A DNA stretch of 64,000 nt from Rhizobium sp. Leaf262 (GTDB taxonomy: Bacteria; Pseudomonadota; Alphaproteobacteria; Rhizobiales; Rhizobiaceae). Location: NCBI RefSeq assembly GCF_001422245.1, contig NZ_LMMM01000020.1, positions 62,001-126,000 of the forward strand, read 5' to 3'. The notes below the pieces were generated by a model. That model was not told the DNA's origin. It saw nothing but the letters and a program-made list of their open reading frames with translations, and did not search any database. The translations under genes were made by a program, and so were the position numbers. Below, in pieces: positions 5,777-25,048 of the stretch. Every line of letters starts with the position of its first letter. Positions within the stretch are counted from its first letter, which is position 1.

Positions 5777-5847
5777 CTGCCATCATTACAAAGCCTGCGG
5801 TGCAGATAGCGCCGCAGGCCACCCGATCCGCTCAAGGACCCAATGCG

Positions 5848-7089: not shown

Positions 7090-7108
7090 TGATGAGAGTG
7101 AGACCGTC

Positions 7109-8095: not shown

Positions 8096-9448
8096 TCAAG
8101 CACTTTCTCTCGCGGCGGCTGGTACGGTGTAGATATTCTCAGGCCGCGGCAGGCCGTAATGATCGCGCAGCGTGTCTCCCTTGTAATCCAGCCGGAACAG
8201 GCCACGCTTTTGAAGAAGCGGCACGACTTCATCGATGAAGATATCGAACCCGCCCGTGAGCCACGGCGGCATGATGTTGAACCCATCCGCAGCACCCTCC
8301 CGGAACCATGTCTCGATCCAGTCCGCCACCTGCTCCGGCGTGCCGGCAATGACCTTATGGCCGCGGCCGCCAGCCAGCCTATGCAGCAATTGCCGGATCG
8401 TCGGATTTTCCCGGTCGATCACATCGAGCACGAGCTGATGACGGCTGCTGTCGGCTTGGGCGCGTGTTGCTTCAACGGCTTCGCGCGGCAAGGGTTTGTC
8501 GAGATCCGCTGAACCGAGATCGATGCCGGTGATGCGGTTCAGTTGCGCCAGAGAAAAGGCTGGCTGGACGAGATCGTTGAATTCGGCCTCCAGCTTGCGT
8601 GCTTCCGTTTCCGTCGAGGCGATGAAGGGGCTGATGCCGGGCAGGATTTTGACATGTGCGGGATTACGCCCCGCTGCGGCCACGCGCTTCTTGATGTCGG
8701 AATAAAAACTTTTGGCGCTTTCGAGCGTCTGGTGCGCGGTGAAAATCGCTTCGGCATAGCGCGCAGCAAAACCTCTTCCCTCCTCGGACGACCCCGCCTG
8801 CACATAGACCGGACGCCCCTGAGGCGAACGCGGCAGGTTCAGCGCACCGCGAACCTGGTAAAATTCGCCCTTGTGATTGGCTGGATGGATACGGTCCGTA
8901 TCTGCAAACAGACCGCTTTCCTTGTCGGCAACGATGGCGTCGTCTTCCCAGCTATCCCACAGCTTCGTCACCACATCGACAAACTCGGTAGCCTGACGAT
9001 AACGGTCGGCATTGGCCGGATGCTTTTCGAGGTTGAAGTTCGCGGCCGCCGCATCTGCCGATGTCGTAACGATGTTCCAGCCGACACGGCCACCACTGAT
9101 ATGATCGACAGAAGCAAACAGCCTCGCGAGATTGTACGGCTCGTAATAGGTGGTGGATGCTGTCGCGATAAAGCCGATCTTCTCCGTTACTGCCGCAAGT
9201 GCGGCAAGCATGGTGATCGGCTCCAAGCGATGGCGGGCGGCATAACGGATATTGCTATCCAGCACCGGCGCATCTGCAAAGAAAATCGCGTCCAGTTTGG
9301 CCGCTTCGGCGCGCCGCGCAATCTCCTGATAAAGCTTGATGTCGGTCACGCGATGCGGCTCAGACTGCGGATGCCGCCACGCTGCTTCATGATGGCCGCC
9401 GGGATAGATGAATGCGTTGAGAACGAGTTTTTCGGATGTCCAGCTCAT
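8096..9448 (-). CDS. LLM-class flavin-dependent monooxygenase, NtaA/SnaA/DszA family
   Basis: Two-component flavin-dependent monooxygenase of the bacterial-luciferase superfamily, 450 residues. It has the NtaA/DszA pattern: GGHHEAAWRHP at the N terminus, FFADAP, then SGGRVGWNIVTT, LPRSPQGRPVYVQAGSSEEG and the C-terminal VVPLLQKRG and TLRDHYGL. Relatives take reduced FMN from a separate reductase and oxidise nitrilotriacetate, pristinamycin or dibenzothiophene sulfone. Its length is close to DszA (about 453). On the minus strand it follows the binding protein at 9513-11108 after 64 bases containing a perfect 22-base palindrome. A likely role is cleavage of a C-S or C-N bond in the imported compound. 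Confidence 0.91.
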   Translation of the reverse strand: MSWTSEKLVLNAFIYPGGHHEAAWRHPQSEPHRVTDIKLYQEIARRAEAAKLDAIFFADAPVLDSNIRYAARHRLEPITMLAALAAVTEKIGFIATASTTYYEPYNLARLFASVDHISGGRVGWNIVTTSADAAAANFNLEKHPANADRYRQATEFVDVVTKLWDSWEDDAIVADKESGLFADTDRIHPANHKGEFYQVRGALNLPRSPQGRPVYVQAGSSEEGRGFAARYAEAIFTAHQTLESAKSFYSDIKKRVAAAGRNPAHVKILPGISPFIASTETEARKLEAEFNDLVQPAFSLAQLNRITGIDLGSADLDKPLPREAVEATRAQADSSRHQLVLDVIDRENPTIRQLLHRLAGGRGHKVIAGTPEQVADWIETWFREGAADGFNIMPPWLTGGFDIFIDEVVPLLQKRGLFRLDYKGDTLRDHYGLPRPENIYTVPAAARESA

Positions 9449-9512: not shown

Positions 9513-11108
9513 TCAGGCTTCTTTTGTCAGCCATGCCTGTGCCAGATTGCCGCTCAGGCCCTCGGCGCCAACGGCATAATCCTTGACCCTGATATTGCCG
9601 ACGACCGGCTGAATGGGTGAGACGAGATTGATGACAGGCAGGTCCTTGGCGATGATGACCTGGAACTCTTTGAACAGCTTGGCGCGCTTCTCGATATCCG
9701 GCTCCACGGCCGCCGCTTCCAGCAAGCGGTCGACCTCGGGGTTTTCGTAGTGGCTGGCATTGGAGAAAGGCAGGCCGATCTTGAAGTTCTTGCTCCAGTA
9801 CACACGCTGAACGCCAGCCGTCGGATCGAACGTGTTGGAGAGTGATTCCACCGAAAGGTCCCAGGCCCGGTCGGTATAGACGACCTTCACATAGGTCCCG
9901 AAATCGAACTTCTGAATATCAGCTTCGATACCGATCTTGATCAGGGCCTGAGCGATAAAATCGGAATAGGTCTGCGGATTGAATGGATTGGTCGTCACCC
10001 TCAGCTTGAAGCGTTTGCCATCCCCCTTGCGCGGGAAGCCAGCCTCATCCAGCAGCTTTTCGGAAAGGGCGGTGTCGAACTTGGCAAAGCCGATATCCGG
10101 ATTGTGGAATTTCGGCAGACCGGGGCTGATGGGCGTGGGAGACGGAACGGCATAACCGTAAAGCACGATATCGATCAGGGAGGGAACGTTGATGGCGTGG
10201 GCGATAGCCTGCCTCACCTTCAGGTTCTTGAGATATTCGTTCTCGAGATTGATGACGAGCTGGTTTTGCTGACCCGCATAAGCATAAATCTGGTCGTCTA
10301 CCTTCAGCGAGGGCACGGCTTTCAAGCGCTCCAGATCAGACAGGGCCACCGGATTGTGACCGATATCGCCCTCCCCGGTTTCAAGCGCTGCCGCCCGCGC
10401 GCCCGCATCGTTGATCAGCCGGATGATGACCCGGTCCAGATGCGGGCGCGGCTGGTCCCAGTAATCGGCGTTCTTTTCCAAAAGAATGTGACTGCCCGGC
10501 GTCCACTCTTTCAGAACGAACGGTCCGCTGCCGATAATCTGGTCCGTTTTGGGGTTTTCGGTCGGCTTGAACGTTTCGAATATGTGTTTCGGCACAATCG
10601 GCGATTCCGACGCCGCCAGCGCCGTGATCAGCCCGGGTGAAGGCTTGGCGAGTTTCAGTTTCGCAACGAGCGGGTCCGATGTATCGACGCTCTCGACCTG
10701 TGAGAAGGTGGCACGACCGCGCGGATGAGCTTCTTTCAGGCGCAAAACAGAGAAGGCGACATCTTGCGAAGTGACGGGTTTGCCATCGTGAAATTTAGCG
10801 TTCGGCTGTAGATGGAACACATATTCCAACCCATCGGCTGATACTGACCACGCCTTCGCCAGACTTGGCTTGGGTGTCAGATCATAACCATAAGTCAACA
10901 GCCCATCATAAATCTTGGAGCCGACAAACTGCGGACCACCAGCGCTGGTGTTGATCGCGACGAGCTGGGTCGGCTCCGGGAAATAGACGATCTTCAACGT
11001 GCCGCCTGAAACCGGCTCTTCGGCTGCCGCGAAGGAACCGCCGGGAAGGGCAACGAACGCCCCCGCAGCAAGCGCGATTTGGTGGAACTGGCGTCTGGAA
11101 AAACTCAT
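9513..11108 (-). CDS. ABC transporter substrate-binding protein, family 5
   Basis: Periplasmic binding protein of the peptide/nickel family, 531 residues. The N terminus has SRRQFHQ followed by a hydrophobic run ending in GGSFAAAEE, a Tat-type signal. The mature part has the family's FHDGKPVTSQDVAFSVLRLKEAHPRGR block and strongly resembles the binding proteins at 19215-20819 and 11772-13367. On the minus strand it lies between the DUF3088 gene and the NtaA/DszA-type monooxygenase, so it is in an operon with redox enzymes rather than with membrane subunits. It probably feeds the importer encoded at 793-4700. Confidence 0.92.
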   Translation of the reverse strand: MSFSRRQFHQIALAAGAFVALPGGSFAAAEEPVSGGTLKIVYFPEPTQLVAINTSAGGPQFVGSKIYDGLLTYGYDLTPKPSLAKAWSVSADGLEYVFHLQPNAKFHDGKPVTSQDVAFSVLRLKEAHPRGRATFSQVESVDTSDPLVAKLKLAKPSPGLITALAASESPIVPKHIFETFKPTENPKTDQIIGSGPFVLKEWTPGSHILLEKNADYWDQPRPHLDRVIIRLINDAGARAAALETGEGDIGHNPVALSDLERLKAVPSLKVDDQIYAYAGQQNQLVINLENEYLKNLKVRQAIAHAINVPSLIDIVLYGYAVPSPTPISPGLPKFHNPDIGFAKFDTALSEKLLDEAGFPRKGDGKRFKLRVTTNPFNPQTYSDFIAQALIKIGIEADIQKFDFGTYVKVVYTDRAWDLSVESLSNTFDPTAGVQRVYWSKNFKIGLPFSNASHYENPEVDRLLEAAAVEPDIEKRAKLFKEFQVIIAKDLPVINLVSPIQPVVGNIRVKDYAVGAEGLSGNLAQAWLTKEA

Positions 11109-11141: not shown

Positions 11142-11486
11142 TCAATGAAGCTGCGGAAAGCCGTGGCGTTCGGCCAGCAGGGAAAGGATGCGTTTCGTGT
11201 CCTGAACGAAGCGCTTGTCGCCGTGAACCGCCGCGTCTTCAGGCGCATCGCCCGCAAAGATCAGCAGTGGCAGCGACTGGTTCTGCTCTCCAACCTGCGC
11301 AATCACCGCCTCTCGCGGACGGGTAAAGCCAACACGGTGGATATCGAGCCGTTCGGCCAGATCGGGAAAACTTGCAAGCAATCCCTCGATCTGGTTGCAA
11401 TGTGGGCAGACGAACGTCACCCCCGGATGTTTCGGGTCTTCAAAACCGGGGGAGATCAGAAAAAGCGTGTCTTTGGCCATTGGCAT
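11142..11486 (-). CDS. DUF3088 protein with thioredoxin-like CPHC motif
   Basis: Small cytoplasmic protein of 114 residues that I recognise as the DUF3088 family (TLFLISPGFEDP at the start, NQSLPLLIFA later). C27 and C30 form CPHC, placed after the first strand as in thioredoxin-fold proteins, so a redox or thiol-transfer role is plausible. The alternative start at residue 3 (MAKDTL) is equally possible. It is the first gene of the minus-strand unit DUF3088, binding protein, NtaA/DszA monooxygenase. The analogy I draw, by context only, is with the small redoxin in the Bacillus ytmI-type operon for S-alkylcysteine sulfur. The biochemical function is not established. Confidence 0.8.
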   Translation of the reverse strand: MPMAKDTLFLISPGFEDPKHPGVTFVCPHCNQIEGLLASFPDLAERLDIHRVGFTRPREAVIAQVGEQNQSLPLLIFAGDAPEDAAVHGDKRFVQDTKRILSLLAERHGFPQLH

Positions 11487-11771: not shown

Positions 11772-13367
11772 TCAGCTTTGCGGTTGCTTCCATGCAGTCG
11801 CGAGGTCGCTGTAGGCCACATCGATGGTCGTGACCAGGGATTGCAGATTTGCGTTTCGCAAAATGACTGTCGGCAGCGCAACAATGGAGAAGTTCGGCAA
11901 TTCATCGCCGGTAATGTTCTGGATTTCCTTGAACTGCGCGGCGCGCTTCGCCTCATCGCTCTCAATGGCAGCGGCACGGAAAAGGTCATCCACCTTTGGA
12001 TTGTTATAATGCGCCGCGTTGACATAAGGTGCCGGGTTCTTGATGCCATCGGACCAGTAGAGCCGCTGTACGCCAGCTGTCGGGTCGAATAGGCGGCTGA
12101 TGCCGTTTACGGTCAGATCGAAGCCGCGCTCGGTGTAGACACGCTTGATGAAGGTCGCGAGATCACCGTCAAGCGTTTCCACCTTTACCCCGAGCTTGCC
12201 GAATGACGAGCGCAGATATTCAGAGGTTTTGCGGAAAACATCCGACGGCAAGAAGGCGAGCCGAAGGGAAAAACGCGTTCCATCCGCGCCTTTCGGATAG
12301 CCCGCCTTGTCGAGCAAGGCGTTGGCCTTGGCAAGGTCGAATGGATAGTCGAACGGCGCTTCGTCATTATAGGTCGCAAAGACCGAGGGAATGTTCGATC
12401 CGGCAGGCTTTGCCGTGCCATAGAAAATGGCGTCATTGATAAAATCGCGGTCAATGGCATGCGCCAATGCGTGCCGAACCTCTTTCTTGGCAAGAATGGG
12501 ATTTTCGAGATTGAACTCGAAGACGGCTGCGTTGTTCAAATAGGCATCCGTATAGACATCGACGGCCAGTTTCGGATCTTGCCGCAGGCGCTCCAGATCG
12601 CCGTAGGACACATCGGTCGCGTAGTCTGCCTCACCCGTTTCCACCGCGATTGTCGCTGATGCAGAGTCCGCAACGAAACGTGCGATGAAGCCATCCAGAT
12701 GCGGCAGCCCGGCCTGCCAGTAGTTCGGGTTACGCTTGAGCTTCACATAGCTGCCGCGCTTCCACTCTTCGAAGATGAAAGGCCCGGTACCGATAGGTGC
12801 ATTGCCGTTCGGACTTTCACTGTAAGTCTCCGACGGGTAGGCATGGGCAGGCAGGATCGGCGTTTCACCGCCGACAAGTGCGCGCAGCAAATAAGGTGCG
12901 GGTTTGGAAAGCACCACGATGGCGGTCAGCGGATCGGGTGTTTCGATATCGGCAATGCTGGCAAATGTGATGCGCCCGCGCGGGCCAACTTTCTTGAAAG
13001 CCAGCAGCGAGAATTTCACATCCGCCGAGGTCAGGTCTTTACCGTCGTGCCATTTGACACCTTGGCGGAGCTTGAACGTATAGCGCAGACCATCACTGGA
13101 CACATCCCAGCTTTCGGCCAGAACAGGATGCGGCTTGAACTCACTGTCAAACCGCACCAGCCCCTCAAGGATTTTCGTGGAAATGGCGCGCGTGCGCGTA
13201 TTGCTATCCGAGAGCGGAACGAGCGTCGTGGGTTCGCCCAGCCCGGCAAACGTCACGATGCCTCCCTTGCTCGGTGTCTGTGGTGCGGCAAAGGACAGCG
13301 ATGGCAAAAGCGCTGCTCCGCCGAATGCCGCACCCAAAAGCAATGTCTTACGCCTCGTCAGATCCAT
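11772..13367 (-). CDS. ABC transporter substrate-binding protein, family 5
   Basis: Third family-5 periplasmic binding protein, 531 residues. The signal LTRRKTLLLGAAFGG with downstream LSFAAPQ is Tat-like. The family block is WHDGKDLTSADVKFSLLAFKKVGPRGR. It is more distant from the other two full-length copies than they are from each other, judging by eye. On the minus strand it follows the M20 amidohydrolase by 42 bases and ends at a terminator, so those two genes form a unit or the end of a longer one. A binding protein beside an amidohydrolase suggests that N-acylated or peptide-like ligands are captured and then deacylated. Confidence 0.92.
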   Translation of the reverse strand: MDLTRRKTLLLGAAFGGAALLPSLSFAAPQTPSKGGIVTFAGLGEPTTLVPLSDSNTRTRAISTKILEGLVRFDSEFKPHPVLAESWDVSSDGLRYTFKLRQGVKWHDGKDLTSADVKFSLLAFKKVGPRGRITFASIADIETPDPLTAIVVLSKPAPYLLRALVGGETPILPAHAYPSETYSESPNGNAPIGTGPFIFEEWKRGSYVKLKRNPNYWQAGLPHLDGFIARFVADSASATIAVETGEADYATDVSYGDLERLRQDPKLAVDVYTDAYLNNAAVFEFNLENPILAKKEVRHALAHAIDRDFINDAIFYGTAKPAGSNIPSVFATYNDEAPFDYPFDLAKANALLDKAGYPKGADGTRFSLRLAFLPSDVFRKTSEYLRSSFGKLGVKVETLDGDLATFIKRVYTERGFDLTVNGISRLFDPTAGVQRLYWSDGIKNPAPYVNAAHYNNPKVDDLFRAAAIESDEAKRAAQFKEIQNITGDELPNFSIVALPTVILRNANLQSLVTTIDVAYSDLATAWKQPQS

Positions 13368-13409: not shown

Positions 13410-14609
13410 TCAGACCGGTTTCAGGCGGCTTTCCACCAGACGCGCAAACAGTGTTGCGCCAACCGGAAGGATCGCGTCATCGACGATAAAGCCGGGATTG
13501 TGGGCTGGTACGGTGCCCGAATGTCCGAGTGTGAAAAACGCACCGGGCGCATGTTTCAGGAGATCGGCGAAATCTTCGCTGCCCATGAAACGGCTGGGCT
13601 CCGTCGATACACGCGCCTCGCCCAAAACCCGACGTGCCACATCGGCAACGATTTCGACCGACGCTTCGTCATTGGTCAGAACCGAGAAGATATCGCGAAT
13701 ATCGACCTCTGCCGAAAGGCCATGAGCCTGAGCGATGTGGTCCGAGATCGTGCGTATCCGGGAGCGGATGGTTTCCCGCACCGTATCTGAGAAAGCCCGC
13801 ACCGTTCCGGCAATCGAAGCCGTCTCTGGAATAACATTATAGGCCGAACCTGCCTCGATGCGGGTGATCGACAGGACCGCCGGTTCGGTGGGCGGGACAT
13901 TGCGGCTGACAATCGTCTGCAAGGCGATAATGAGTTCACCGATTGCGGGAACGGGATCATTCGCCACATCCGGGTGGGCCGCATGCGCGCCCTTGCCCTT
14001 CAGCCTGATATCGAAAAAGTCGGCCCCCGCCAGAATGGTTCCCGGCGATACTTTGAGGTGATTGGGCGCGGCGTGTGATGAATTGTGCAGCCCGTAAAGC
14101 TCATCCACGGGAAAGTCCTTGAACAGCCCGTCGGCGATCATCGCACGCGCGCCACCCAAGCCTTCTTCCGCAGGCTGGAAGATAAAGACCACCGAGCCCG
14201 CAAAGTCACGGGTCTCCGCCAGATATCGAGCCGTTCCCAACAGGATCGTGGTGTGAACGTCATGTCCGCATCCGTGGAACTTGCCGGGGTAAATGGAAGC
14301 GTAAGGCAGGCCGGTTTCTTCCGGCATTGGCAGAGCGTCCATATCAGCGCGCAGACCGATGACGCGATTGCCCGCATGTTTGCCGCGAAGCACGCCGACG
14401 AGGCCCGTCTTGCCGTATCCACGATGAACCTCGATACCCCACGACGCCAGCTTTTCCGCGACGATGCCGGATGTGCGCACTTCTTCAAAGCCAATTTCCG
14501 GGTGGCGGTGCAGATCGTGCCGGATATCTACCAGTTCGGGAACATAGGTTGCGATCAGATCGATAATCTCTGGTGCTGGTGTTTTGACGGGATCGACGGC
14601 AATATTCAC
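13410..14609 (-). CDS. M20-family amidohydrolase (M20D, hippurate hydrolase type)
   Basis: Cytoplasmic metal-dependent amidohydrolase, 399 residues, full length. The metal-site residues are visible: HGCGHDVH with C114, H116 and H119, QPAEEG with E148-E149, and H175; the C-terminal MGSEDFA and FTLGH motifs complete the active site. A dimerisation domain sits between about 185 and 300. M20D enzymes remove acyl groups from N-acyl amino acids. Homologues in Bacillus sulfur operons deacetylate N-acetyl-S-alkylcysteines, which makes a similar role attractive here. It lies between the SfnG/SsuD-type monooxygenase and a binding protein, all on the minus strand. Confidence 0.93.
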   Translation of the reverse strand: MNIAVDPVKTPAPEIIDLIATYVPELVDIRHDLHRHPEIGFEEVRTSGIVAEKLASWGIEVHRGYGKTGLVGVLRGKHAGNRVIGLRADMDALPMPEETGLPYASIYPGKFHGCGHDVHTTILLGTARYLAETRDFAGSVVFIFQPAEEGLGGARAMIADGLFKDFPVDELYGLHNSSHAAPNHLKVSPGTILAGADFFDIRLKGKGAHAAHPDVANDPVPAIGELIIALQTIVSRNVPPTEPAVLSITRIEAGSAYNVIPETASIAGTVRAFSDTVRETIRSRIRTISDHIAQAHGLSAEVDIRDIFSVLTNDEASVEIVADVARRVLGEARVSTEPSRFMGSEDFADLLKHAPGAFFTLGHSGTVPAHNPGFIVDDAILPVGATLFARLVESRLKPV

Positions 14610-14689: not shown

Positions 14690-15862
14690 TCAAAGCCTCA
14701 GCCCGGCCTCCTTCATCAGCGGCAGAATACGGTCACCGAAATATTCCAGGTCTTCCCGGAAATCGTAGAAGTTGAGCTGAACACCATCGATGCCGACAGC
14801 TTTGAGCGCCACCAGTTGCTCGACCACCTGCTCTGGCGAACCGATGATCTCGATATTGCCGCCGAGATTGCGGCCCTGCTTGTGACGAGGGTCGCCGCGT
14901 CCGCGCCAGGCATGGGCATCGCTTTCATAATTATTGGCGGCGAATGCACGCGCGCCGCCCGGCTGCGGCTTGCCCGCCTCGATGGCGTCGGCATAGGAAA
15001 TGGCCTCCGCTTCCGTATCGCGACTGACGATGATCGGGTTGATGATCGTCTTCACATGCCGCCCATATGCTTTTGCGCGGTTTTTGATCGTCGCAATGTG
15101 GTCGGGAAGCGTCTCCAGCGCGCTATCGATGTGGGCACCGCCGGGCGATGTAACGAACACGAGATCGGAGTGGCGCGCCGCAAAATCGATGCCAGCTGGA
15201 GAGCCTGTGGCCGTAACGAGGTTGGGCCGACCGAACGCAGGCTTAGGCGTGATCCAGCCGTTGCTGATAGCCCATGGATTGAGTTTTCCCTCATGGGAGA
15301 AGTTCTCGGTTTCGCTCCACAGCCGGTGCAACACGTCGAAAAGTTCGCTCGCCATATCGTAGCGCTTGTCGTGCTCGATGCGCTGCCAACCGAACATTTC
15401 ATGCTCGATGGCGCGGTGACCGGTAACAATGTTGATGCCCCACCGACCCTTGGCGATATGATCTAGCGTTGCTCCATACTTGGCCAGATGCAGGGGATGG
15501 AGCGGGCCGTAAAGGACATGAATGGTCGAAATCAGCAAAATGCTTTTCGTCACCGCTGCCATGGCGCCCAAGGCAACGAAGCTGTCGAGCGATGAATCCC
15601 CATCGTAACCACCCTTCGGCAGCCATTGGGTTCGGCTGAAAGCCAACTCGAAACCCAGCTCCTCCGCTCGCCTCACCAGTTCGACATTGTAATCGAAGGT
15701 CCAGCTGTTGCTGGTCGGCAGGCTTGAAAAATTGATGTCCTGCAGATTGAGAAATAGCCCCAGCATCAAGGGCTGTCGTGAAGCTTTGCTGAGCGGGCTG
15801 TCTGCAAAATCGAACGGTCCTTTTAGCTCCAGGTCTCCGGCTATCGGCGCAGTCAGTGCCAT
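14690..15862 (-). CDS. LLM-class flavin-dependent monooxygenase, SfnG/SsuD type
   Basis: Flavin-dependent monooxygenase of the luciferase superfamily, 390 residues. It belongs to the alkanesulfonate/dimethylsulfone branch rather than the NtaA branch: PLMLGLFLNLQ, FSRTQWLPKGGYDG, GRWGINIVTGH, EMFGWQRIEHDKRYDMASEL and the C-terminal GIDGVQLNFYDFREDLEYFGDRILPLM. SfnG and SsuD relatives use FMNH2 and oxygen to split sulfones or sulfonates into sulfinate or sulfite plus a carbon product. Its start overlaps the NmrA-type reductase gene by 10 bases, so the two are translated from one message. A product of this enzyme could be a sulfinate for the DszB-like protein two genes upstream. Confidence 0.9.
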   Translation of the reverse strand: MALTAPIAGDLELKGPFDFADSPLSKASRQPLMLGLFLNLQDINFSSLPTSNSWTFDYNVELVRRAEELGFELAFSRTQWLPKGGYDGDSSLDSFVALGAMAAVTKSILLISTIHVLYGPLHPLHLAKYGATLDHIAKGRWGINIVTGHRAIEHEMFGWQRIEHDKRYDMASELFDVLHRLWSETENFSHEGKLNPWAISNGWITPKPAFGRPNLVTATGSPAGIDFAARHSDLVFVTSPGGAHIDSALETLPDHIATIKNRAKAYGRHVKTIINPIIVSRDTEAEAISYADAIEAGKPQPGGARAFAANNYESDAHAWRGRGDPRHKQGRNLGGNIEIIGSPEQVVEQLVALKAVGIDGVQLNFYDFREDLEYFGDRILPLMKEAGLRL

Positions 15863-16749
15863 GTTTTTTCTCCCTTGGGGCCATGTGTTTGCGTTTGGGC
15901 AGGCCGCAGATGGCTGCGCAAAAATTCCTCGACCGCACGCGGCTGCCTGCCGGTGATGCGCGATACCGTCTGCGTCACCGGTGCGGCCAGTCCGGCACCG
16001 ATCAGATCGACGAACCCGTCGATGGCGCGCCGTTCGAATGCATCTAAGTGTGATGGCAATGCAGCGGATGAAGCATCCGATATGCCAATCGGTCTCTGTA
16101 AGATTCGAGCCGCGATCCGTGCGACCTCGAGTGAGGTCAGCGCCTCTGCACCGGTCAAAACCAAGGGGTCGGATGAGATGGAGTGATCGAGCAGGGCCCG
16201 AACTGCGACATCGGCGATATCCTGCGCATCGATGTAGGACACGGGAGCGTTTCCGTACCGGCTTGGCAAATCCTCGCCTTTAATGGCAGCAGCGATAACC
16301 GGGGCAAAAGACACCTGCATCCAGGCATTGGGCCGCAGAATGGCATGCGCGATGCTGCTCGCAGTCAAATGCTCTTCTACCGCCGCATGAGCGGCACCGG
16401 ATATGGAGCGGTCGGCATTTCGCAAGGTCCAGTCGGACCCGGATATCTTGAAGATCCTGACAACACCGGCAGCTTTCGCGGCATCGATGGCGGCGTTTTG
16501 GTGTGTGATGAGTGCCTCGCTGATCGGCGAAAGCAGGAAAAGTTTCTGAGCGCCCCGCGCTGCCTTTCTCACGGTTTCCGGGTCAGCGAAATCTCCCTGC
16601 GCGACCTCAACCTTGTCACCCCATAGACCCACTGCCTCCTGAGGACGCCGGGTCAGCACCCGCACCGTTTTGCCCGCCTCGAGAAGCCTTGGCACGACGA
16701 GCTTGCCCAGCTTGCCTGTCGCGCCCGTGACAAGAATGTCTACCGCCAT
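15853..16749 (-). CDS. NmrA-type NAD(P)-binding reductase
   Basis: Atypical short-chain dehydrogenase of the NmrA/quinone-reductase (QOR2) group, 298 residues. The nucleotide-binding GATGKLG is at 9-15. The classical YxxxK catalytic pair is not obvious, as in NmrA-like proteins. It lies between the DszB-like gene (10-base gap) and the SfnG/SsuD-type monooxygenase (10-base overlap). It could supply reducing power or reduce a carbonyl product, but nothing in the sequence fixes the substrate. Confidence 0.87.
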   Translation of the reverse strand: MAVDILVTGATGKLGKLVVPRLLEAGKTVRVLTRRPQEAVGLWGDKVEVAQGDFADPETVRKAARGAQKLFLLSPISEALITHQNAAIDAAKAAGVVRIFKISGSDWTLRNADRSISGAAHAAVEEHLTASSIAHAILRPNAWMQVSFAPVIAAAIKGEDLPSRYGNAPVSYIDAQDIADVAVRALLDHSISSDPLVLTGAEALTSLEVARIAARILQRPIGISDASSAALPSHLDAFERRAIDGFVDLIGAGLAAPVTQTVSRITGRQPRAVEEFLRSHLRPAQTQTHGPKGEKTWH

Positions 16750-16759
16750 GTTCCCGCCC

Positions 16760-17815
16760 TCACTTCACAAGCGACGGGCGCGATGCGGCCAGCGGCCGCG
16801 GATCGATCCAGTCGTGGACATCGAAATCGGCGGGAATGAACTTCCATTCAAGCAGGAAGTCCTTGAAGTGGCTGATGGCATCCACTTCGGCAGGATCGAG
16901 ATCGAGCACCAGTTGCCGGTGCACGTCAGGGCCATTTGCGGCCAGAACGGCGTCTTCACTCACCCCAATTTCGAGCGCGATGAAGCGAACCGCATCTTGC
17001 GGGTTGTCATTTGCCCATTGGGAGACCCGCTGAACGCTCGACACCAATTCGGCAACGAGATCCGGGCGCTCATCCGCAAAGGTCGCATCCACAGTCAGTG
17101 GTCTGGGCGTACCATTATTGATGCGGATTTTCGGGTCTGGATGAAATCCGGTGGAAACGACGACCCGTGCGCCGAGCAGGTTGGCAACCGTTATCCCCTC
17201 GGCACCCTTCACGAAGAAGGCGTCGATTTCGCCGCGGTGCAGAGCCGCGATTTCTTCACCGTAAGGAAACCGACGCTTGAGGCCATGAAACCTTTGGTCG
17301 GTAGGATTAAGTAGAACCGGCTCAGACGCACCGATATCCACCAATTCAACGTCATCAGGGACAAGGTCGGAGATCGTAAGAGCCGAGACGATGCCCTTGA
17401 GCGATGTTGCGCGCTGAAAGTCGATAATCTCATTCGGGCGCTTTGGCAGACCTATTCGTCTGCCCTTCAAATCCGCGCCTTTGGTGATGTCGCTTTCCGG
17501 CAGGGCGATGACGGCCTGAAACTCATCCGTCCGCGTCAGACCGATCAGCCGGGTCTGGCGGCCTTTCGAACGCGTCCAGATCGGCGGGATATTGCCGCCT
17601 TGGCGAAAAGACCAGTCTAGTCGGTGATCGAAATGGCTCTGGCGAATGGCGGGATCAGTCGCATCGCGAATGGAGGTAACGCCGATGCCATGCGCCCAAA
17701 AGCCCTCTTCGACCCAACCGAGCTGCGCAGCAATCGATAAAGGTGTGGGAGCCGGGCAGCGCGCATACCACACGGTGTCTGGTTGCGTTACCTTACGAAG
17801 GGCTGCGTCTGCCAT
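16760..17815 (-). CDS. DszB-like desulfinase candidate (SsuA/TauA-fold protein without signal peptide)
   Basis: Protein of 351 residues with the fold of SsuA/TauA-type binding proteins, but with no signal peptide: the N terminus is polar and goes straight into VWYARCPAPTPL. That matches my recollection of DszB, the 2-hydroxybiphenyl-2-sulfinate desulfinase, where Cys27 lies in NCPVP. Numbered from the ATG at 17815, C20 corresponds to Cys27, H61 to His60 and R71 to Arg70. R71 lies exactly 10 residues after H61 and is followed by GG at 73-74 then IPP, as in DszB (GGEIPP). The C-terminal LDLDPAEVDA and FLLEW blocks also resemble it. I infer a cytoplasmic sulfinate-cleaving enzyme releasing sulfite. 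AAGGA before 17815 supports this start; the ATG at 17824 abuts it. A plain binding protein is the alternative. Confidence 0.75.
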   Translation of the reverse strand: MADAALRKVTQPDTVWYARCPAPTPLSIAAQLGWVEEGFWAHGIGVTSIRDATDPAIRQSHFDHRLDWSFRQGGNIPPIWTRSKGRQTRLIGLTRTDEFQAVIALPESDITKGADLKGRRIGLPKRPNEIIDFQRATSLKGIVSALTISDLVPDDVELVDIGASEPVLLNPTDQRFHGLKRRFPYGEEIAALHRGEIDAFFVKGAEGITVANLLGARVVVSTGFHPDPKIRINNGTPRPLTVDATFADERPDLVAELVSSVQRVSQWANDNPQDAVRFIALEIGVSEDAVLAANGPDVHRQLVLDLDPAEVDAISHFKDFLLEWKFIPADFDVHDWIDPRPLAASRPSLVK

Positions 17816-17968
17816 GGCTATCATCCTTGAATACGAGCGATATCAGGCACGCTATAAGGATAATTATATAATCTATAGATATGATATACTATTTATCATG
17901 GTGGTGGTGAGATCGCTTTTCCAAAAGCAGGTTGCACGGTCTGCTTGCGCGCACCGTGCCGTTGGCCT
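17816..17968 (-). promoter_or_regulatory. AT-rich promoter region of the DszB-like unit
   Basis: This 153-base gap lies upstream of the DszB-like gene on the minus strand. It holds a strongly AT-rich block (17849-17900) unlike its surroundings. On the minus strand a perfect -10 hexamer TATAAT is at 17863-17868, about 48 bases before the start; the -35 is poor, so an activator is likely. A palindrome ATCTATAGAT at 17871-17880 overlaps the expected -35 spacer and could be a regulator site. Confidence 0.5.
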
Positions 17969-18814
17969 CTACTTGATCGAGAAGCCGAGCGTCCGCAAAG
18001 TTTTCGTCAATTCCGCCCTGCCCTTCAGCGCCGCTGCATTCTCGACACGCTTGGAAATTGGCCCTGTCCAGCCCGCCTGTGGCAGCTTTTGCTTGACCTG
18101 AAATGCTTTCAGCACGTCGTCGTAAGCACTCAGATCTTTCTCAGGTGTTCCAGCATATGTCTCATGAAACAGGACAGAAGATTGAGGCAGACGCGGCTTC
18201 ACGTCGGTGATGACGTCAGGGTCGGGATATCCCACGGTGAGGCCAAAGACCGCAACTGTTTCCGGCGGCAACTGCAGTTCACGGGCAACGTCATGTGGCT
18301 GGTTACGGACACCGCCCACATAGCATGAGCCGAGACCAAGACTATCGATTGCCGCGACGGCGTTCTGGGCCGCAAGAGCCGCATCGATGGCCCCGATCAG
18401 GAAACTTTCCAGATAATCCAGCCCCTCTCCCTCATTGCCGTGTTGCTGGGCAACGGTCCTCAACCGCTTCAGATCGATCAGCCAGACCAGAAAAAGCGGC
18501 GCGGCCAGAATATGCGCGTTGCCACCGGTATAGCCCGCAAGCCGTGCCTTTCGGTCCTTGTCCTGAACCGCGACGACGCTCCAGGCTTGAAGATTGGACG
18601 AGGTCGGCGCGGACTGGGCCGCTGCCACCAGAAGTTCCAGCGTACCCTCGGGCAATGATTTCGGCAGATAGGCGCGCGCGGTGCGATGGTTCAGCAGAGC
18701 ATCGACGGTGCTGTTCCAGAACGGCAGCGCAAAATCCTGATCCGCGCCATAGCGTTCTGCAAGGCGCTGCCTTGGCACGTCACCATCAGTAATGGAGGAA
18801 GAATGTATCGTCAT
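17969..18814 (-). CDS. Nitroreductase-family flavin oxidoreductase
   Basis: FMN-dependent NAD(P)H oxidoreductase of the nitroreductase family (NfsA-like), 281 residues. The FMN-contact motifs are HRTARAY at 43-49, SAPTSSNLQ at about 68-76 and GLGSCYVGGVRN in the second half. Family members reduce nitro groups, quinones or free FMN. The island encodes several monooxygenases that need reduced FMN and no other obvious flavin reductase of the SsuE or DszD type, so this protein could be the FMNH2 supplier; that is inference. It is the first gene of the minus-strand series and diverges from the binding protein at 19215. Confidence 0.9.
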   Translation of the reverse strand: MTIHSSSITDGDVPRQRLAERYGADQDFALPFWNSTVDALLNHRTARAYLPKSLPEGTLELLVAAAQSAPTSSNLQAWSVVAVQDKDRKARLAGYTGGNAHILAAPLFLVWLIDLKRLRTVAQQHGNEGEGLDYLESFLIGAIDAALAAQNAVAAIDSLGLGSCYVGGVRNQPHDVARELQLPPETVAVFGLTVGYPDPDVITDVKPRLPQSSVLFHETYAGTPEKDLSAYDDVLKAFQVKQKLPQAGWTGPISKRVENAAALKGRAELTKTLRTLGFSIK

Positions 18815-19214: not shown

Positions 19215-20819
19215 ATGGCTATAGGACGTCGTAAATTCAACCAGTTGTTACTTCTGGCCACCGCAGGCACCGCCCTGCCAGGCTCTGTCTTTGCAGCGGA
19301 TGCCACGCGGCGTCCGGTTTCCGGCGGCACGCTCAATCTTCTTTATCGCGTCGATCCGGGCAATGCCCTGTTTGCCATCAACACCTCTTCGGGAACGGGC
19401 CAGGCCATCGGCCCAAAAATCGTTGAAGGCCTTCTGACGTTCGATTTCGACCTTACGCCGCAGCCACTTCTGGCAACCGAATGGTCGGTCTCGGAGGATC
19501 ATCTTCGCTATACGTTTAAATTGCGCCCGAATGTGAAATGGCATGACGGCAAGGATTTCAGCTCCGATGACGTGGCCTTTTCGATCTTTCGCCTCAAGGA
19601 GGCGCATCCGCGCGGTCGCGTAACCTACCAGAATGTGACCGCCGTCGAAACGCCCGACCCGCTGACCGCCATCATCGTTCTGTCCAAACCGGCGCCGTTC
19701 CTGATTGCTGCGCAATCCAGTTCTGAATCCCCAATCGTGCCGAAACACATTTTCGAAACGCTGAAGCCCGGTGATGGCCAAACGCTCAAGACCGCCATCG
19801 GCACCGGCCCGTTCAGGCTGACGGAGTGGACGCCGGGCAGCCATCTCATCTTCGAGCGCAATCCGGATTATTGGGATGCTGGCAAACCTTATCTCGACCG
19901 CATTGTCCTGCGCATCATTACCGACCCGGCTGCGCGCGCGGTTGCGCTGGAGACCGGCGAGGTCGATATCGGTGATAACCCCGTTCCGCTGGCCGATCTG
20001 GAACGGTTGAAGCAAAATCCCGATCTGGTGTTGGATACGACGACCTATGCCTATGCGGGGCCACAGCAGCAGCTGTTTTTCAATTACGACAACGAAATCT
20101 TCGCGAAGAAAGATGTGCGTCTTGCCATTGCCAAGGCCATCAATCTTGAAGAAATCGTCAATGTGGCGCTGTTCGGTTACGCTCAGATTTCGCCAAGTCC
20201 CGTCAGCACCGCGCTGCCCAAATGGTACGATCCTTCGGTCACGGCGTACCCGCATGATCCTAAAGAGGCCGAAAAGCTTCTGGATACAGCGGGCTATCCA
20301 CGCAAGGCGGTTGGCAAACGTTTCACCGTGCGACTGACCTACAATTCCTATCTGACGCCGGGTTACGCCGATGTCATTCGCAACCAGCTCGAAAAGATCG
20401 GCATCGCGGTCGAGATCCGAAAATACGATCTGCCGACCTATCTCAAGACCGTTTACACCGACCGCGCCTTCGATCTTGTGGTGGAATCTCTATCCAACAC
20501 CTTCGATCCGTCTCTTGGCATACAGCGAGCCTATTGGAGCAAGAACTTCAAACTCGGCCTGCCCTTCTCCAACGCCGCTCACTATTCGAACCCGCAAGCC
20601 GACGCCCTGCTCGAGGCGGCAGCTATCGAGCCGGATGAGGCGAAGCGGAAAGAGATATGGAGCAAGTTCCAGCACCTCATCCACGACGATGTCGCCTCGG
20701 TGGATCTCGTGGCCGCAGGCAACCAGATCGTCGCCCACAAGAAGGTGAAGAATTACGTCACCGGCGCGCAGGGGCTCAACTGGAGCTTTGGCGACCTTTG
20801 GCTCGATCCGAATTCCTGA
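19215..20819 (+). CDS. ABC transporter substrate-binding protein, family 5
   Basis: Fourth family-5 periplasmic binding protein, 534 residues. The signal is Tat-like (GRRKFNQLLLLATAG, cleavage after SVFA). The mature protein shares long stretches with the copy at 9513-11108, for example SKNFK(L/I)GLPFSNA(A/S)HY near the C terminus, so these two are recent paralogues. It opens a plus-strand operon with the rhodanese, the SfnB/DszC-like flavoprotein and the NtaA/DszA-type monooxygenase. The operon has no permease of its own, so it probably uses the channel encoded at 793-4700. Confidence 0.93.
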   Translation: MAIGRRKFNQLLLLATAGTALPGSVFAADATRRPVSGGTLNLLYRVDPGNALFAINTSSGTGQAIGPKIVEGLLTFDFDLTPQPLLATEWSVSEDHLRYTFKLRPNVKWHDGKDFSSDDVAFSIFRLKEAHPRGRVTYQNVTAVETPDPLTAIIVLSKPAPFLIAAQSSSESPIVPKHIFETLKPGDGQTLKTAIGTGPFRLTEWTPGSHLIFERNPDYWDAGKPYLDRIVLRIITDPAARAVALETGEVDIGDNPVPLADLERLKQNPDLVLDTTTYAYAGPQQQLFFNYDNEIFAKKDVRLAIAKAINLEEIVNVALFGYAQISPSPVSTALPKWYDPSVTAYPHDPKEAEKLLDTAGYPRKAVGKRFTVRLTYNSYLTPGYADVIRNQLEKIGIAVEIRKYDLPTYLKTVYTDRAFDLVVESLSNTFDPSLGIQRAYWSKNFKLGLPFSNAAHYSNPQADALLEAAAIEPDEAKRKEIWSKFQHLIHDDVASVDLVAAGNQIVAHKKVKNYVTGAQGLNWSFGDLWLDPNS

Positions 20820-20842: not shown

Positions 20843-21931
20843 ATGTCAGAACAATCCATCAGCAAAAACACGCTCATCAACTGGCTGGGAGATGGCCAGG
20901 AACTGGCCGTCATCGATATCCGGCCAACGGAGGTTGTCGGCTATGCCTCACCGCTGTTTGCGACCAACCTGCCCGCCGACAGGCTGGATGCCGAGCTTGA
21001 TCGTTTCGTTCCGCGCCGCTCGGTCCGCACGGTGCTGGTGGACGATGGCACGGACGTTGGTCACCACGCGGCTGAACGGCTGAAAGCCAAGGGCTGGAGT
21101 GACATCCATTTTCTTGATGGCGGCATACCTACTTGGACCGAGGGCGGTTTGGACAAGCTTCCAACCTTCGACATTCCCGGCGTGCCTTTCGTGCACAAGG
21201 TGCGCGCGGAAAAGAACACGCCCGTTATCTTCGCACGCGAACTCAAGGCATGGAAGGACGCTGAAGAGAACGTCCTCGTTATCGACACCCGTACCACGCC
21301 TGAATATGAAAAGGCGCATGTTCCCGGCGCTATCAACGTACCGGGCGCGGAACTTCTGCTGCGTTTTGCAGACCTCGTCCCCTCATCGGAAACGAAGATC
21401 GTCGTGTCCTGCGCTGGACTCCCCCGCGCAATCCTTGGCGCACAGACCTTGATCGATGCAGGCATCGAAAACAGCGTCAGCTACCTGCATGATGGAACGC
21501 GCGGCTGGACAGACGATGGCTTTGAACTGGAGACGGGTCTGTCGGGCATCTACCCTCCCGTAAGTCCGACAGCAAAGCGATTTGCACAAGCTCGCCTTGA
21601 TACACTTTCGAGCGGGGACGACCTCACTTTCATCGACCGTGTCACCGTCGAAAGATGGCTGGCGGATAACGAGCGGACGACCTATTTCCTCGACGTTCGC
21701 ACCCCAGAAGAGTTCGCGGCGTCGCATCTACCGGGCTCGATTTCATCGGAAGGCGGCCAGTTGCTTGGCGTTGCCTACCGCACCATTGCGGTGCGCGGGG
21801 CACGGGTCATTCTCGTTGATGACCTCCTGGGAGCGCGTGCACGCATTGTCGCGCACTGGCTGAAACGGCGTGGTTTTGAGATCGTGCTTCACCTCCATGA
21901 TTTCGAGCAAAGTGCGCAGGCCGCCGCCTGA
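20843..21931 (+). CDS. Three-domain rhodanese-like sulfurtransferase
   Basis: Cytoplasmic protein of 362 residues with three consecutive rhodanese domains (about 8-108, 125-235 and 262-355). Only the middle one has the catalytic cysteine, C190 in VVSCAGLPRA. The equivalent positions in the first and third domains are Asp (LVDDG near 66-69, LVDDL near 325-328), so those two are structural or regulatory. The ATG at 20843 has AAGGAG just before it; the frame is open further upstream but inside the previous gene. Rhodaneses move sulfane sulfur from thiosulfate or persulfides. In this operon it may accept sulfur freed by the flavoproteins or handle thiosulfate formed from sulfite. Confidence 0.92.
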   Translation: MSEQSISKNTLINWLGDGQELAVIDIRPTEVVGYASPLFATNLPADRLDAELDRFVPRRSVRTVLVDDGTDVGHHAAERLKAKGWSDIHFLDGGIPTWTEGGLDKLPTFDIPGVPFVHKVRAEKNTPVIFARELKAWKDAEENVLVIDTRTTPEYEKAHVPGAINVPGAELLLRFADLVPSSETKIVVSCAGLPRAILGAQTLIDAGIENSVSYLHDGTRGWTDDGFELETGLSGIYPPVSPTAKRFAQARLDTLSSGDDLTFIDRVTVERWLADNERTTYFLDVRTPEEFAASHLPGSISSEGGQLLGVAYRTIAVRGARVILVDDLLGARARIVAHWLKRRGFEIVLHLHDFEQSAQAAA

Positions 21932-22063: not shown

Positions 22064-23317
22064 ATGACCGACACCCTGCACGCATGGGGCTCGCCACCCA
22101 GCAAACGCTATGAAACAATCGCAAATCGGTTTCGCCCGATTTTCACGCAGATTGCCACAGACACGGTGGCGCGCGATCTCGACAGGCAACTTCGCTTCGA
22201 CGCGTATGAAGCGTTGAAGGCGGCAGGCTTTTCCAAGTTGCGCCTGCCGGAACAGCATGGTGGTATCGGTCTAACCCTGCCTGAACTTTTCGGCCTGATC
22301 ATCGAACTGGCTGAAGCCGATCCCAATCTTACCAATGCCTATCGCAGCCATTTCGGCTTTACCGAAGACTTGCTCAACGCCCCCTCGAGTGCATGGCGCG
22401 ATAACTGGCTTGCCCGGCTCGGCGAGGGAGACACCATCGGCAGCGGCTTTTCGGAACTGGGTGACACGCGGCTTGGGACCTATTCGACACAGTTGATCCG
22501 TGACGAAAGTGGCTGGCGCCTGAATGGTGAGAAATATTACACCACCGGTTCTCTTTACGCCGACTGGATCACGCTTGGCGCGGTGGATGGAGATGGCGAA
22601 CCTATCGGCGCACTCGTGCCGACCCGGGCACCCGGCGTTGACATCGTCAACGATTGGGATGGCTTCGGGCAGGCGCTGACGGCAAGTGGCACGGCGCGCT
22701 TTACCGATGTGGCGATCGCGGACGAGTTGATCAAACCCAGCGCGCTTCGTTTCAGCTATTCCAGTGGATTTTTCCAACTGGTTCATCTGGCATCGCTTGC
22801 CGGCATAGGCCGCGCTGCGGCCTCGGATCTGGCGCGCCTCGTGGCGGATCGAAAGCGGGTCTATCAGCGCAGCAACGCCGGCCGCTTTGCGGATGACCCG
22901 CAAATCCTCCAGGTCGTCGGCCAAGTGCGGGGTGCAGTCTATACTGCGGGCGCCATCGTGCTGAAGGCAGCGGAGGCGTTGCAAGCAGCCTATGACGCCA
23001 ACCTTTCTGGCGACGAAGAGCAGATTGCCTTTGCCAACCGCAACGCTGAAATCGAAGTCAGCCAATCGGTGACGGTTGTCAGTAAACTGATACTCGAAGC
23101 ATCCACTACGCTTTTCGACGCCCTTGGTGCCTCTGCCGCCAAACGCAGCCATGGACTGGACCGTCACTGGCGCAACGCACGCACCATCACCTCCCATAAT
23201 CCACGCATCTACCACGACCGGATCGTCGGCGATTTCGCCGTCAACGGTGCCTCTCCGCCCGCCAATGGTAGCGTGGGAGTAGCGGTGCAAACAGACAAAG
23301 AAAAAACAGACGCATGA
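22064..23317 (+). CDS. Acyl-CoA dehydrogenase-fold flavoprotein, SfnB/DszC family (second copy)
   Basis: Flavoprotein of 417 residues, the same length as DszC, with the acyl-CoA dehydrogenase fold and the SfnB/DszC sequence type. Landmarks are DLDRQLRFDAYEALKAAGFSKLRLPEQHGG, FGFTEDL, LNGEKYYTTGSLYADW and HGLDRHWRNARTITSHNP at the C terminus. It is a paralogue of the protein at 5848-7089 with clearly different sequence, so the two may act on different sulfur compounds. The stop overlaps the start of the following monooxygenase as ATGA. This coupling of a DszC-type to a DszA/NtaA-type protein mirrors sequential S-oxidation and C-S cleavage. Confidence 0.9.
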   Translation: MTDTLHAWGSPPSKRYETIANRFRPIFTQIATDTVARDLDRQLRFDAYEALKAAGFSKLRLPEQHGGIGLTLPELFGLIIELAEADPNLTNAYRSHFGFTEDLLNAPSSAWRDNWLARLGEGDTIGSGFSELGDTRLGTYSTQLIRDESGWRLNGEKYYTTGSLYADWITLGAVDGDGEPIGALVPTRAPGVDIVNDWDGFGQALTASGTARFTDVAIADELIKPSALRFSYSSGFFQLVHLASLAGIGRAAASDLARLVADRKRVYQRSNAGRFADDPQILQVVGQVRGAVYTAGAIVLKAAEALQAAYDANLSGDEEQIAFANRNAEIEVSQSVTVVSKLILEASTTLFDALGASAAKRSHGLDRHWRNARTITSHNPRIYHDRIVGDFAVNGASPPANGSVGVAVQTDKEKTDA

Positions 23318-24621
23318 GCAGACCACAACGCCGGCTGAACCTGAACGTTGGTATCAACACGACTGGCTATCTTCCCAATGCCTGGAAATACCGCACCGGT
23401 ACCCGGCACGACATCAATGATATCGGCTATTACCGCCGACTGACGGAAATCGCCCATAAGGGGCGGTTCGATGCGGTGTTTTTGTCGGACCATCCAGCAC
23501 TTCTGACCGATCCGCTCAGCCGGCCGTTTCACACCATCGATCCGCTGATCCTGTCCACATCCCTTGCGGCCCAAGTGCCAGACATCGGCTTCGTGGCGAC
23601 AATTTCCTCCACCTATAACTCCCCTTACAATCTGGCGAGACGGACGCAGTCCATCGACATCGTCTCGGGTGGTCGCCTGATCATCAATGTGGTGTCTTCC
23701 TTCAATCCAAATGTCGCAGCCAATTTCGGCAACGCGCCACTGCCGCCGCGCAGCGAGCGTTACGCGAAGGCCACGGAGTTTCTGGATGTGGCCAAAAAAC
23801 TCTGGTCCAGTTGGGACGAACGCCGTGATCAAGCCGTTCCGGACGACCTTTTCTGGGACGCGGTGAGCGCTCAGGCCATCGAGCATGAGGGTGACTTCTT
23901 CACCGTCAAAGGTCCGCTCAACGTACCGCGTGGGCCGCAGGGCCATCCTGTCATCGCCCAGGCAGGCGCGTCGGAAGGCGGCATCGATCTTGCTGCGCGG
24001 CACGGCGAAATCATCTATTGCAACATTCTATCACGTCCCGCCGGGCGGGCATTCGGCAAGAAAGTGCGGGACCGGGCCGTTGCCCTCGGCCGAGATCCAT
24101 CCGGCATCCGCATCGTTCCGGGCCTCGTCGTCATTCTGGGCAAGACCCGCGAAGAGGCCTTGAGAAAACACGAACTCTTCAGCGGCACGGGTTCTGAAGA
24201 CGGACTAATCGCCCGTTTCATCAAAGAAAATGGTCTCGATCCCAACAGCTTCGACCCGGATGCCGTACTGAATGCCGAAGAATTCATACCGGACCAGAAC
24301 CGCCAATGGGCCGTCGGCATGGGGCTCGGCCTTTCCGACCTCCTGACCCATGAGCGGCTGACGGCCCGCCAAGTCGTGCGACGCTCCGAGGGACATCACC
24401 GCCTGCTGCTGGGTACCGCTGAAGAAGTGGCAGATGGCATCATCGATTTGTGGCAGGACGGCACCGTAGACGGATACACCCTCCAGCCCCCACGCGCGCC
24501 GGATGACATCATCGAATTCGTGGAACAGGTCGTGCCAATTTTGCAGGATAGAGGCGTCTATCCGCGGGAATACGAGGGAAGGACGATCAGAGATCGATAT
24601 CTCCTGCCTTATCCGATTTGA
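23314..24621 (+). CDS. LLM-class flavin-dependent monooxygenase, NtaA/DszA family (second copy)
   Basis: Flavin-dependent monooxygenase of 435 residues in the NtaA/SnaA/DszA branch. Motifs are FLSDHPAL, SSTYNSPYNLARR, SGGRLIINVVSSFNP, NVPRGPQGHPVIAQAGASEGG and, at the end, VVPILQDRGVYPREYEGRTIRDRYLL. It differs from the copy at 8096-9448 in much of its body, so the two probably have distinct substrates. It needs reduced FMN from a separate reductase. It ends the plus-strand operon binding protein, rhodanese, SfnB/DszC-like, NtaA/DszA-like. Confidence 0.92.
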   Translation: MSRPQRRLNLNVGINTTGYLPNAWKYRTGTRHDINDIGYYRRLTEIAHKGRFDAVFLSDHPALLTDPLSRPFHTIDPLILSTSLAAQVPDIGFVATISSTYNSPYNLARRTQSIDIVSGGRLIINVVSSFNPNVAANFGNAPLPPRSERYAKATEFLDVAKKLWSSWDERRDQAVPDDLFWDAVSAQAIEHEGDFFTVKGPLNVPRGPQGHPVIAQAGASEGGIDLAARHGEIIYCNILSRPAGRAFGKKVRDRAVALGRDPSGIRIVPGLVVILGKTREEALRKHELFSGTGSEDGLIARFIKENGLDPNSFDPDAVLNAEEFIPDQNRQWAVGMGLGLSDLLTHERLTARQVVRRSEGHHRLLLGTAEEVADGIIDLWQDGTVDGYTLQPPRAPDDIIEFVEQVVPILQDRGVYPREYEGRTIRDRYLLPYPI

Positions 24622-25048
24622 GTCCTGAGAAGAAGGTTGGCGGTCGTAAGTGCCGTCGCCATTCTGATTAGAGGGCTCCGCGTTTTAGCACTGCCAAATG
24701 CCTCGGATTAAACGAAAATCCATTTCGCAATTTACCATCCTCAAGCAATGTTTGCCTCTTGCCTATGGCAGCATCGATGACCTATGTTTGCATTGTTCTC
24801 AGGGCGGGGTGCAATTCCCCACCGGCGGTATCGGGATTTTCCCGGAGCCCGCGAGCGCTTTCGGCTCACGCCGAAAGGTCAGCAGATCCGGTGAGATGCC
24901 GGAGCCGACGGTATAGTCCGGATGGAAGAGAACAAGGTGGCATAACCCGCACGTTGCGGGGGACCGTTGCGTTGTTCGCCCAAGGGAAATTTGGCGTTTT
25001 TAAAAACGCGAAAGTGCTGGAAACGGCATAACCCTTGAAAGGCATGAA
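24622..25048 (+). other. Intergenic region and ribB leader
   Basis: This 427-base gap between the monooxygenase gene and ribB contains the FMN riboswitch (24795-24933) and its expression platform. Downstream of the aptamer are a CCGCA/TGCGG hairpin near 24947-24961 and a perfect 16-base palindrome GCGTTTTTAAAAACGC at 24994-25009. These probably form the switchable terminator or ribosome-site sequestering structures. The first 170 bases should hold the ribB promoter; no protein-coding gene is apparent. Confidence 0.6.
24795..24933 (+). promoter_or_regulatory. FMN riboswitch (RFN element)
   Basis: The conserved RFN landmarks are all present in order: GTTCTCAGGGCGGGGTG at the 5' end, CCCCACCGGCGGTA, a variable stem, GTCAGCAGATCCGGTGAGA, GCCGACGGTATAGTCCGGAT and the closing GAGAAC that pairs with the opening GTTCTC. 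It lies 115 bases upstream of ribB, in the same orientation. FMN binding normally lowers expression of the downstream riboflavin gene by termination or by blocking translation. Confidence 0.96.

Follow-up and report, generated by a model that had tools for sequence, protein, structure and literature searches.

Does an SsuA-fold protein of Rhizobium sp. Leaf262 bind solutes for an ATP-binding cassette (ABC) importer, or is it an enzyme that takes sulfite from a sulfinate? The question is raised by a gene on the minus strand of a 64,000-nucleotide stretch of contig NZ_LMMM01000020.1 (positions 62,001 to 126,000, hereafter the window), which a preliminary description made from the sequence had taken for a desulfinase of the DszB type. 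We propose that the product of this DszB-like gene is probably a DszB-family enzyme that desulfinates a sulfinate in the cytoplasm and has a general role in sulfur scavenging. Homology, fold, conserved residues and gene neighbourhood are the basis of this assignment, and from them we infer the reaction, the order of the pathway, the substrate class and sulfite as the product; any one class of substrate is much less certain than the assignment itself.

By sequence, profile and fold, the closest characterised relative of the DszB-like protein, and the nearest solved one, is DszB (PDB 2DE2, 2DE3 and 2DE4; match at E 2.3e-16, ~27% identity), and not an exported binding protein, an outcome that the preliminary description had named among those that would speak against its proposal. 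The two proteins are alike in fold, length, signal-less N-terminus, the positions of C27, H60, R70 and G72-G73 of DszB and the IPP stretch, and both are encoded near DszA- and DszC-type monooxygenases. SsuA and TauA have the same fold, and SsuA shares the IPP stretch after the motif, but they are exported and have lower profile and Z scores, and neither C-[PA]-x-P nor H-x9-R-x-GG is present in the aligned E. coli SsuA and TauA. Searches of the 5.05-Mb genome with SsuA_fam (12 places) and NMT1 (8 places) yielded 11 distinct proteins besides two DszB-like genes; both DszB-like copies carry the motifs, and none of the 11 carries either. This absence, together with the full-length homology to DszB, rules out a chance motif.

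In the numbering of the 351-residue form, also used in the preliminary description, the DszB-like protein carries C20-P-A-P23, H61, R71, G73-G74 and I76-P-P78, with a His-to-Arg spacing of 10. All these elements had been listed before, and the NCPVP and GGEIPP segments and identical spacing then attributed to DszB agree with its sequence (H-x9-R). C27, H60, R70 and G73 are the residues named in DszB by PMC6100217 (this and the other papers cited by PMC identifier are quoted from excerpts): C27 is the proposed source of the proton, the ionised form of this Cys is stabilised by H60, and the sulfinate apparently forms hydrogen bonds with H60 and R70; the C27S variant is inactive and H60Q is ~17-fold slower. 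Alignment and superposition would place the Cys, His and Arg of the DszB-like protein in one pocket.

We examined the conservation of these residues starting from 51 open reading frames (ORFs) with BLAST matches, of which two were left out before counting, namely L017_926, which lacks the motif and has ~21% identity, and a truncated Devosia paralog, L018_3_599. The resulting 49 rows comprise Mycobacterium DszB and 48 family rows, the DszB-like protein and its paralog included; the 48 stem from 34 sources, of which many are closely related. The columns of C20, H61, R71, G73 and G74 are invariant in all 48 family rows and identical in Mycobacterium DszB. The exact H-x9-R-x-GG spacing is found in 47 of the 48, L058_5471 being the exception, and strict CPxP in 46. 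R238 is likewise present in all family rows and in DszB.

The ORF spans 16760-17824 (354 residues) from its first ATG and 16760-17815 (351 residues) from its second. The latter is the likelier start, because close relatives begin with MADAAL and AAGGA lies 8 bases ahead of the second ATG, as read by eye; it also agrees with the end coordinate, 17815, of the preliminary description, in which no strand was named. A stop stands six codons ahead of the first ATG, leaving an open frame of 360 residues for a 354-residue protein, so that a signal peptide would not fit. At the N-terminus, the best 12-residue hydrophobic mean is 1.0, compared with at least 1.9 in 9 of the 11 other SsuA_fam/NMT1 proteins of the genome; the measure is crude, as the N-terminus of Mycobacterium DszB reaches 1.8. 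The closed frame and the lack of a strong hydrophobic core bear out the earlier claim that no export signal is present, and the protein is predicted to be cytoplasmic.

The usual name of these proteins may stem from the available signatures. SsuA_fam is the main NCBIfam match of the DszB-like protein (76.9 bits, below the curated cut-off of 163.5). In one family alignment of 16 members, Mycobacterium DszB among them, every protein hits the SsuA_fam model of NCBIfam at E<=0.001 and, at that threshold, no desulfinase model, which would explain annotation as binding proteins. Such a name had been foreseen in the preliminary description: of 103 matching plasmid records, 9 of the 40 listed show a feature under the match, and all nine are called ABC transporter substrate-binding protein.

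The neighbourhood of the gene (Table 1) is rich in flavin-dependent enzymes. The monooxygenases among them are related to DszA and DszC without being equivalogs of either. The scores of the monooxygenase at 8096..9448 lie close together (YtnJ 362, NTA monooxygenase 339 and DszA 324 bits), and for most DszB-like genes in our comparison a relative of the monooxygenase at 23314 lies close by. At E<=1e-30, 3 of the 9 NtaA/DmoA matches and 3 of the 5 SfnB matches of the genome fall within a ~30-kb part of this contig, which does not include the two best SfnB matches. Among the genes identified between 793 and 24621, there is no permease or ATPase of the SsuBC type. We propose that the NfsA-type nitroreductase may supply reduced flavin. 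The same kinds of monooxygenases (SfnG-like at 14690, SfnB-like at 5800 and 22064) make up the SfnG/SfnB and MsuC/MsuD systems, in which oxidation of the sulfinate gives a sulfonate that is then cleaved by a monooxygenase, and which are not known to include a DszB-like protein.

Table 1. Features identified around the DszB-like gene (positions in the window)
Feature	Position	Strand	Remarks
Peptide-type solute-binding protein, start (SBP_bac_5)	1..536	minus	twin-arginine-like N-terminus; runs off window; start chosen by reading
Peptide-type ABC importer: two permeases, two ATPases (oligo_HPY)	793..4700	plus	
Aldo/keto reductase	4721..5776	plus	
Acyl-CoA-dehydrogenase-fold protein, SfnB/DszC-like	5800..7089	plus	below both cut-offs
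LysR regulator	7049..8086	plus	nearest GcvA model, below its cut-off
NtaA/DmoA-family flavin mononucleotide (FMN) monooxygenase	8096..9448	minus	best PDB: YtnJ/MoxC, then NTA monooxygenase, DszA entry
Peptide-type solute-binding protein (SBP_bac_5)	9513..11108	minus	
DUF3088 protein	11142..11486	minus	
Peptide-type solute-binding protein (SBP_bac_5)	11772..13367	minus	
M20-family amidohydrolase	13410..14609	minus	
Luciferase-like monooxygenase	14690..15862	minus	nearest dimethylsulfone monooxygenase SfnG (8T0U), below SfnG cut-off
NmrA-like NAD(P)-binding oxidoreductase	15853..16749	minus	10 bases downstream of DszB-like gene
DszB-like desulfinase candidate, 351 residues (or 354 from 17824)	16760..17815	minus	C20, H61, R71, G73-G74
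Nitroreductase, NfsA type	17969..18814	minus	174.2 bits, below cut-off 223
Peptide-type solute-binding protein (SBP_bac_5)	19215..20819	plus	
Rhodanese-domain protein	20843..21931	plus	start codon chosen by reading
Acyl-CoA-dehydrogenase-fold monooxygenase	22064..23317	plus	best PDB: TdsC, MsuC; DszC further down
NtaA/DmoA-family FMN monooxygenase	23314..24621	plus	nearest EDTA monooxygenase (5DQP)

Just outside the window on the same contig, beyond the binding-protein gene at 1..536, locus L003 has genes for a binding protein, a second DszB-like protein, an acyl-CoA-dehydrogenase-fold protein and an NtaA-family monooxygenase nearest to YtnJ/MoxC in a row, the last three on the strand of the gene at 1..536. 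The second DszB-like protein is 56% identical to the first, keeps the motif residues and has DszB as its only match in the PDB. With DszB as closest relative, the catalytic residues conserved family-wide and DszC/SfnB- and DszA/SfnG/NtaA-type monooxygenases nearby, the earlier proposal of a DszB-type desulfinase is strengthened.

We then compared 29 loci, 27 from genome contigs and 2 from Sinorhizobium plasmids. They encode a luciferase-like monooxygenase in 28 cases, an NmrA-like protein in 22, an acyl-CoA-dehydrogenase-fold protein in 20 and an M20 hydrolase in 15; 12 have more than one DszB-like gene. Importer genes, for a permease or an ATPase, occur in 25 of the 29, some of these genes being only 30 to 45% identical and perhaps belonging to other importers. 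The nine loci without an acyl-CoA-dehydrogenase-fold gene (L006-L014) are from Agrobacterium and R. rhizogenes; the gene may lie beyond their ends, as six of these stretches stop at the LysR gene and three earlier. In Devosia, Chelatococcus, Neorhizobium vignae and Sinorhizobium, one strand carries the importer and aldo/keto reductase genes, and the other DszB-like 2, the acyl-CoA-dehydrogenase-fold gene, DszB-like 1 and then the monooxygenase gene. The acyl-CoA-dehydrogenase-fold gene that lies between the DszB-like pair is whole in S. medicae (L032) but broken into two ORFs in S. meliloti 1021 (L031:16460-17973, plus). Genes for an acyl-CoA dehydrogenase family protein, a DszB-like protein and an NAD(P)H-binding protein adjoin in Paracoccus aminophilus, and on a Streptomyces plasmid the DszB-like gene is followed by genes for an SsuA/NrtA-type importer and a luciferase-like monooxygenase. 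On a plasmid of Sphingobium sp. TomTYG65 (L058:5471-12311), three DszB-like genes lie close to others that carry the names ssuA, ssuB, ssuC and ssuD, and are themselves annotated as monooxygenases, one under the gene name soxB.

The best relatives of the DszB-like protein come from a Rhizobiales isolate (97% identity), A. rubi (93%) and A. rosae (88%), which makes it probable that the strain belongs to Agrobacterium. Of 39 genomes of the genus, 26 gave a match, and 25 of these 26 did so in two or more places; the second copy is matched partly in G405 and in two pieces in G410. Matches were found in at least 11 of 297 genomes of the family sample and at least 10 of 398 of the phylum sample, three of the latter covering the C-terminal part only; these counts are lower bounds, with the top 5 to 7 candidates scored per genome.

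An AT-rich, conserved element, TAGTAYANNNTWTCTATAGA, lies upstream of the DszB-like gene (17872..17891, minus). Its pattern, derived from 9 aligned upstream regions, matches the genome once when up to 2 mismatches are allowed, as does the reversed control pattern; it is possibly a promoter or operator. With no match at up to 3 mismatches near the paralog (L003) or in the Sinorhizobium (L031), Chelatococcus (L024) and Devosia (L018) loci, it does not mark such clusters in general. No sulfur-related riboswitch was found: Rfam at gathering thresholds gave only an FMN riboswitch in the window (24791-24937, plus, 124.5 bits). This riboswitch is flanked by the monooxygenase gene at 23314 and by ribB at 25049, a gene of riboflavin supply adjoining the cluster of flavin-dependent enzymes.

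In the pathway that we envisage, organosulfur compounds would be imported and then oxidised to sulfones by SfnB/DszC-like flavin monooxygenases, after which luciferase-fold monooxygenases of the SfnG/NtaA/DszA type would cut a C-S bond to yield a sulfinate. The DszB-like enzyme, concerned by the last step only of this flow of import, S-oxygenation, sulfone cleavage and desulfination, would release sulfite from which cysteine could be made. On the model of DszB, R71 and H61 would hold the sulfinate, and C20 would donate a proton to the carbon losing sulfur.

Several observations weigh against this assignment. The identity to DszB is low, and DszB stands on a long branch, for which the program gave a warning. 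N75, E98 and R231 are present in all 48 family rows, K203 in 47 (one R) and H64 in 47 (one gap), and DszB has E, G, a gap, W and Y at these columns. At the column, by column count, of W155, an active-site residue of DszB (PMC6100217), the DszB-like protein has T beside a gap. R71 taken alone is weakly informative, because R70 of DszB, assumed to be structural, belongs to an RXGG motif called common to DszB homologs (PMC6100217). The excluded Devosia paralog (L018:3-599, minus), which is cut by the locus end, keeps RxGG and has Ser for the catalytic Cys and no matching His. The Pseudomonas locus L028 has no luciferase-like monooxygenase detectable by BLAST at 1e-15. The monooxygenase at 23314 scores 319.7 bits to EDTA monooxygenase versus 191.7 to DszA, and the acyl-CoA-dehydrogenase-fold protein of L003 is nearest to 5GJ7/5Z8T (168.6 bits), with only ~50 bits to DszC, which counts against a strict dszABC reading.

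These residue differences suggest a different substrate. Besides H for Y63, the DszB-like protein has A at the S25 column, where 44 of the 48 family rows have T and 4 have A; of the aromatic pocket of DszB (F61, W155 and F203), F61 aligns with F62, W155 falls in the column described above and the alignment of F203 is uncertain. If the family-wide residues line the pocket, as we read them, it would take a more polar, perhaps charged, substrate; the substrate is probably more polar than 2'-hydroxybiphenyl-2-sulfinate. Other features that set the family apart from DszB are the frequent presence of two copies and the link to a peptide-type importer. This importer, the four peptide-type binding proteins, the M20 hydrolase and the conserved charged residues lend some weight to S-linked cysteine or peptide derivatives, imported and trimmed by the M20 enzyme, as the source of the sulfinate in place of thiophene-like compounds. 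YtnJ/MoxC, the nearest relatives of the monooxygenases at 8096 and in L003, act on S-substituted cysteines. This option, which we hold to be plausible though not the favoured one, is a choice of substrate within the desulfinase assignment, and the two overlap in probability. Against it stand the presence of M20 genes in only about half of the loci, the near-equal scores of the monooxygenase at 8096 and the need for an aromatic carbon in the DszB chemistry proposed in PMC6100217. We found no open-licence paper joining CmoJ/YtnJ with S-methylcysteine.

Other readings depart further from a DszB-type desulfinase of sulfur scavenging. That the protein binds solutes for a sulfonate ABC importer, as the standard annotation implies, having lost its signal or being exported by an unrecognised route, is highly improbable: the frame leaves no room for a signal, sequence, profile and fold favour DszB, the catalytic columns are invariant, the importer genes of the window are peptide-type and the importer of L056 has its own binding protein. 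An exported binding protein was rejected on the absent signal, these scores and the neighbours. The Cys/His/Arg pocket might act on another group or substrate class, given that Thi5, MqnD and 4,5-dihydroxyphthalate decarboxylase, all in our fold list, share the scaffold and that the family-wide N75, E98, K203 and R231 are unlike DszB; we regard this as unlikely. As for a true 2'-hydroxybiphenyl-2-sulfinate desulfinase enabling dibenzothiophene or benzothiophene use through the 4S pathway as known, DszA- and DszC-type monooxygenases do lie nearby, phenotypes on dibenzothiophene sulfone (Agrobacterium sp. MC501) and on benzothiophene (Sinorhizobium sp. KT55) are cited (PMC3868597 and PMC4327732), and dibenzothiophene use is described for a Chelatococcus (PMC4839641), a genus also holding the DszB-like family (L024). 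The phenotype of MC501 makes the earlier statement that the organism has no known dibenzothiophene use too strong at the genus level (PMC4327732). However, the DszB peptide quoted for Chelatococcus is the Rhodococcus DszB sequence, not a member of the DszB-like family (PMC4839641). The excerpts of PMC3868597 and PMC4327732 assign no gene to the KT55 phenotype. With the low identity to DszB, the changed pocket columns, the peptide-type importer and scores of 112.9 and 120.7 bits for the two acyl-CoA-dehydrogenase-fold proteins of the window, far below the DszC cut-off of 850, the dibenzothiophene pathway proper is unsupported and quite improbable.

No description of this DszB-like subfamily was found in the titles and abstracts retrieved from the open-licence literature. 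Among described operons, bdsABC of Gordonia terrae C-6 is similar in having a desulfinase gene beside FMN monooxygenase genes, the former being described as of low homology to 4S enzymes (PMC3868597). In Sinorhizobium, we tentatively take the divergent operons sma2085-sma2077 and sma2087-sma2101 of S. meliloti pSymA to be the DszB-like operons of L031, given their layout of five plus eight genes, which fits the locus if the split acyl-CoA-dehydrogenase-fold gene is counted as two and one unidentified ORF is included. Both operons rise on deletion of pSymB nt 635,940-869,642 (PMC5940162); the word 'sulfur' does not occur in that paper, in which these presumed operons were measured.

Tentatively, and with more doubt than confidence, plant-associated bacteria might share a widespread, undescribed 4S-like pathway acting on polar natural aryl or heteroaryl thioethers and sulfones, with two DszB-like enzymes for two sulfinates, and forming the natural background of sulfur scavenging out of which the fuel-desulfurizing dsz operon arose by divergence. 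Such genes could also account for the phenotypes of KT55 on benzothiophene and of MC501 on dibenzothiophene sulfone. In biodesulfurization, DszB has been described as the slow, product-inhibited step (PMC12168087), and a conserved subfamily with its catalytic residues and a changed pocket would offer natural variation for its study. The desulfinase assignment would correct the annotation of genes now named as transporter parts in Sinorhizobium and other bacteria, and it would point to a further source of sulfur in the plant root zone.
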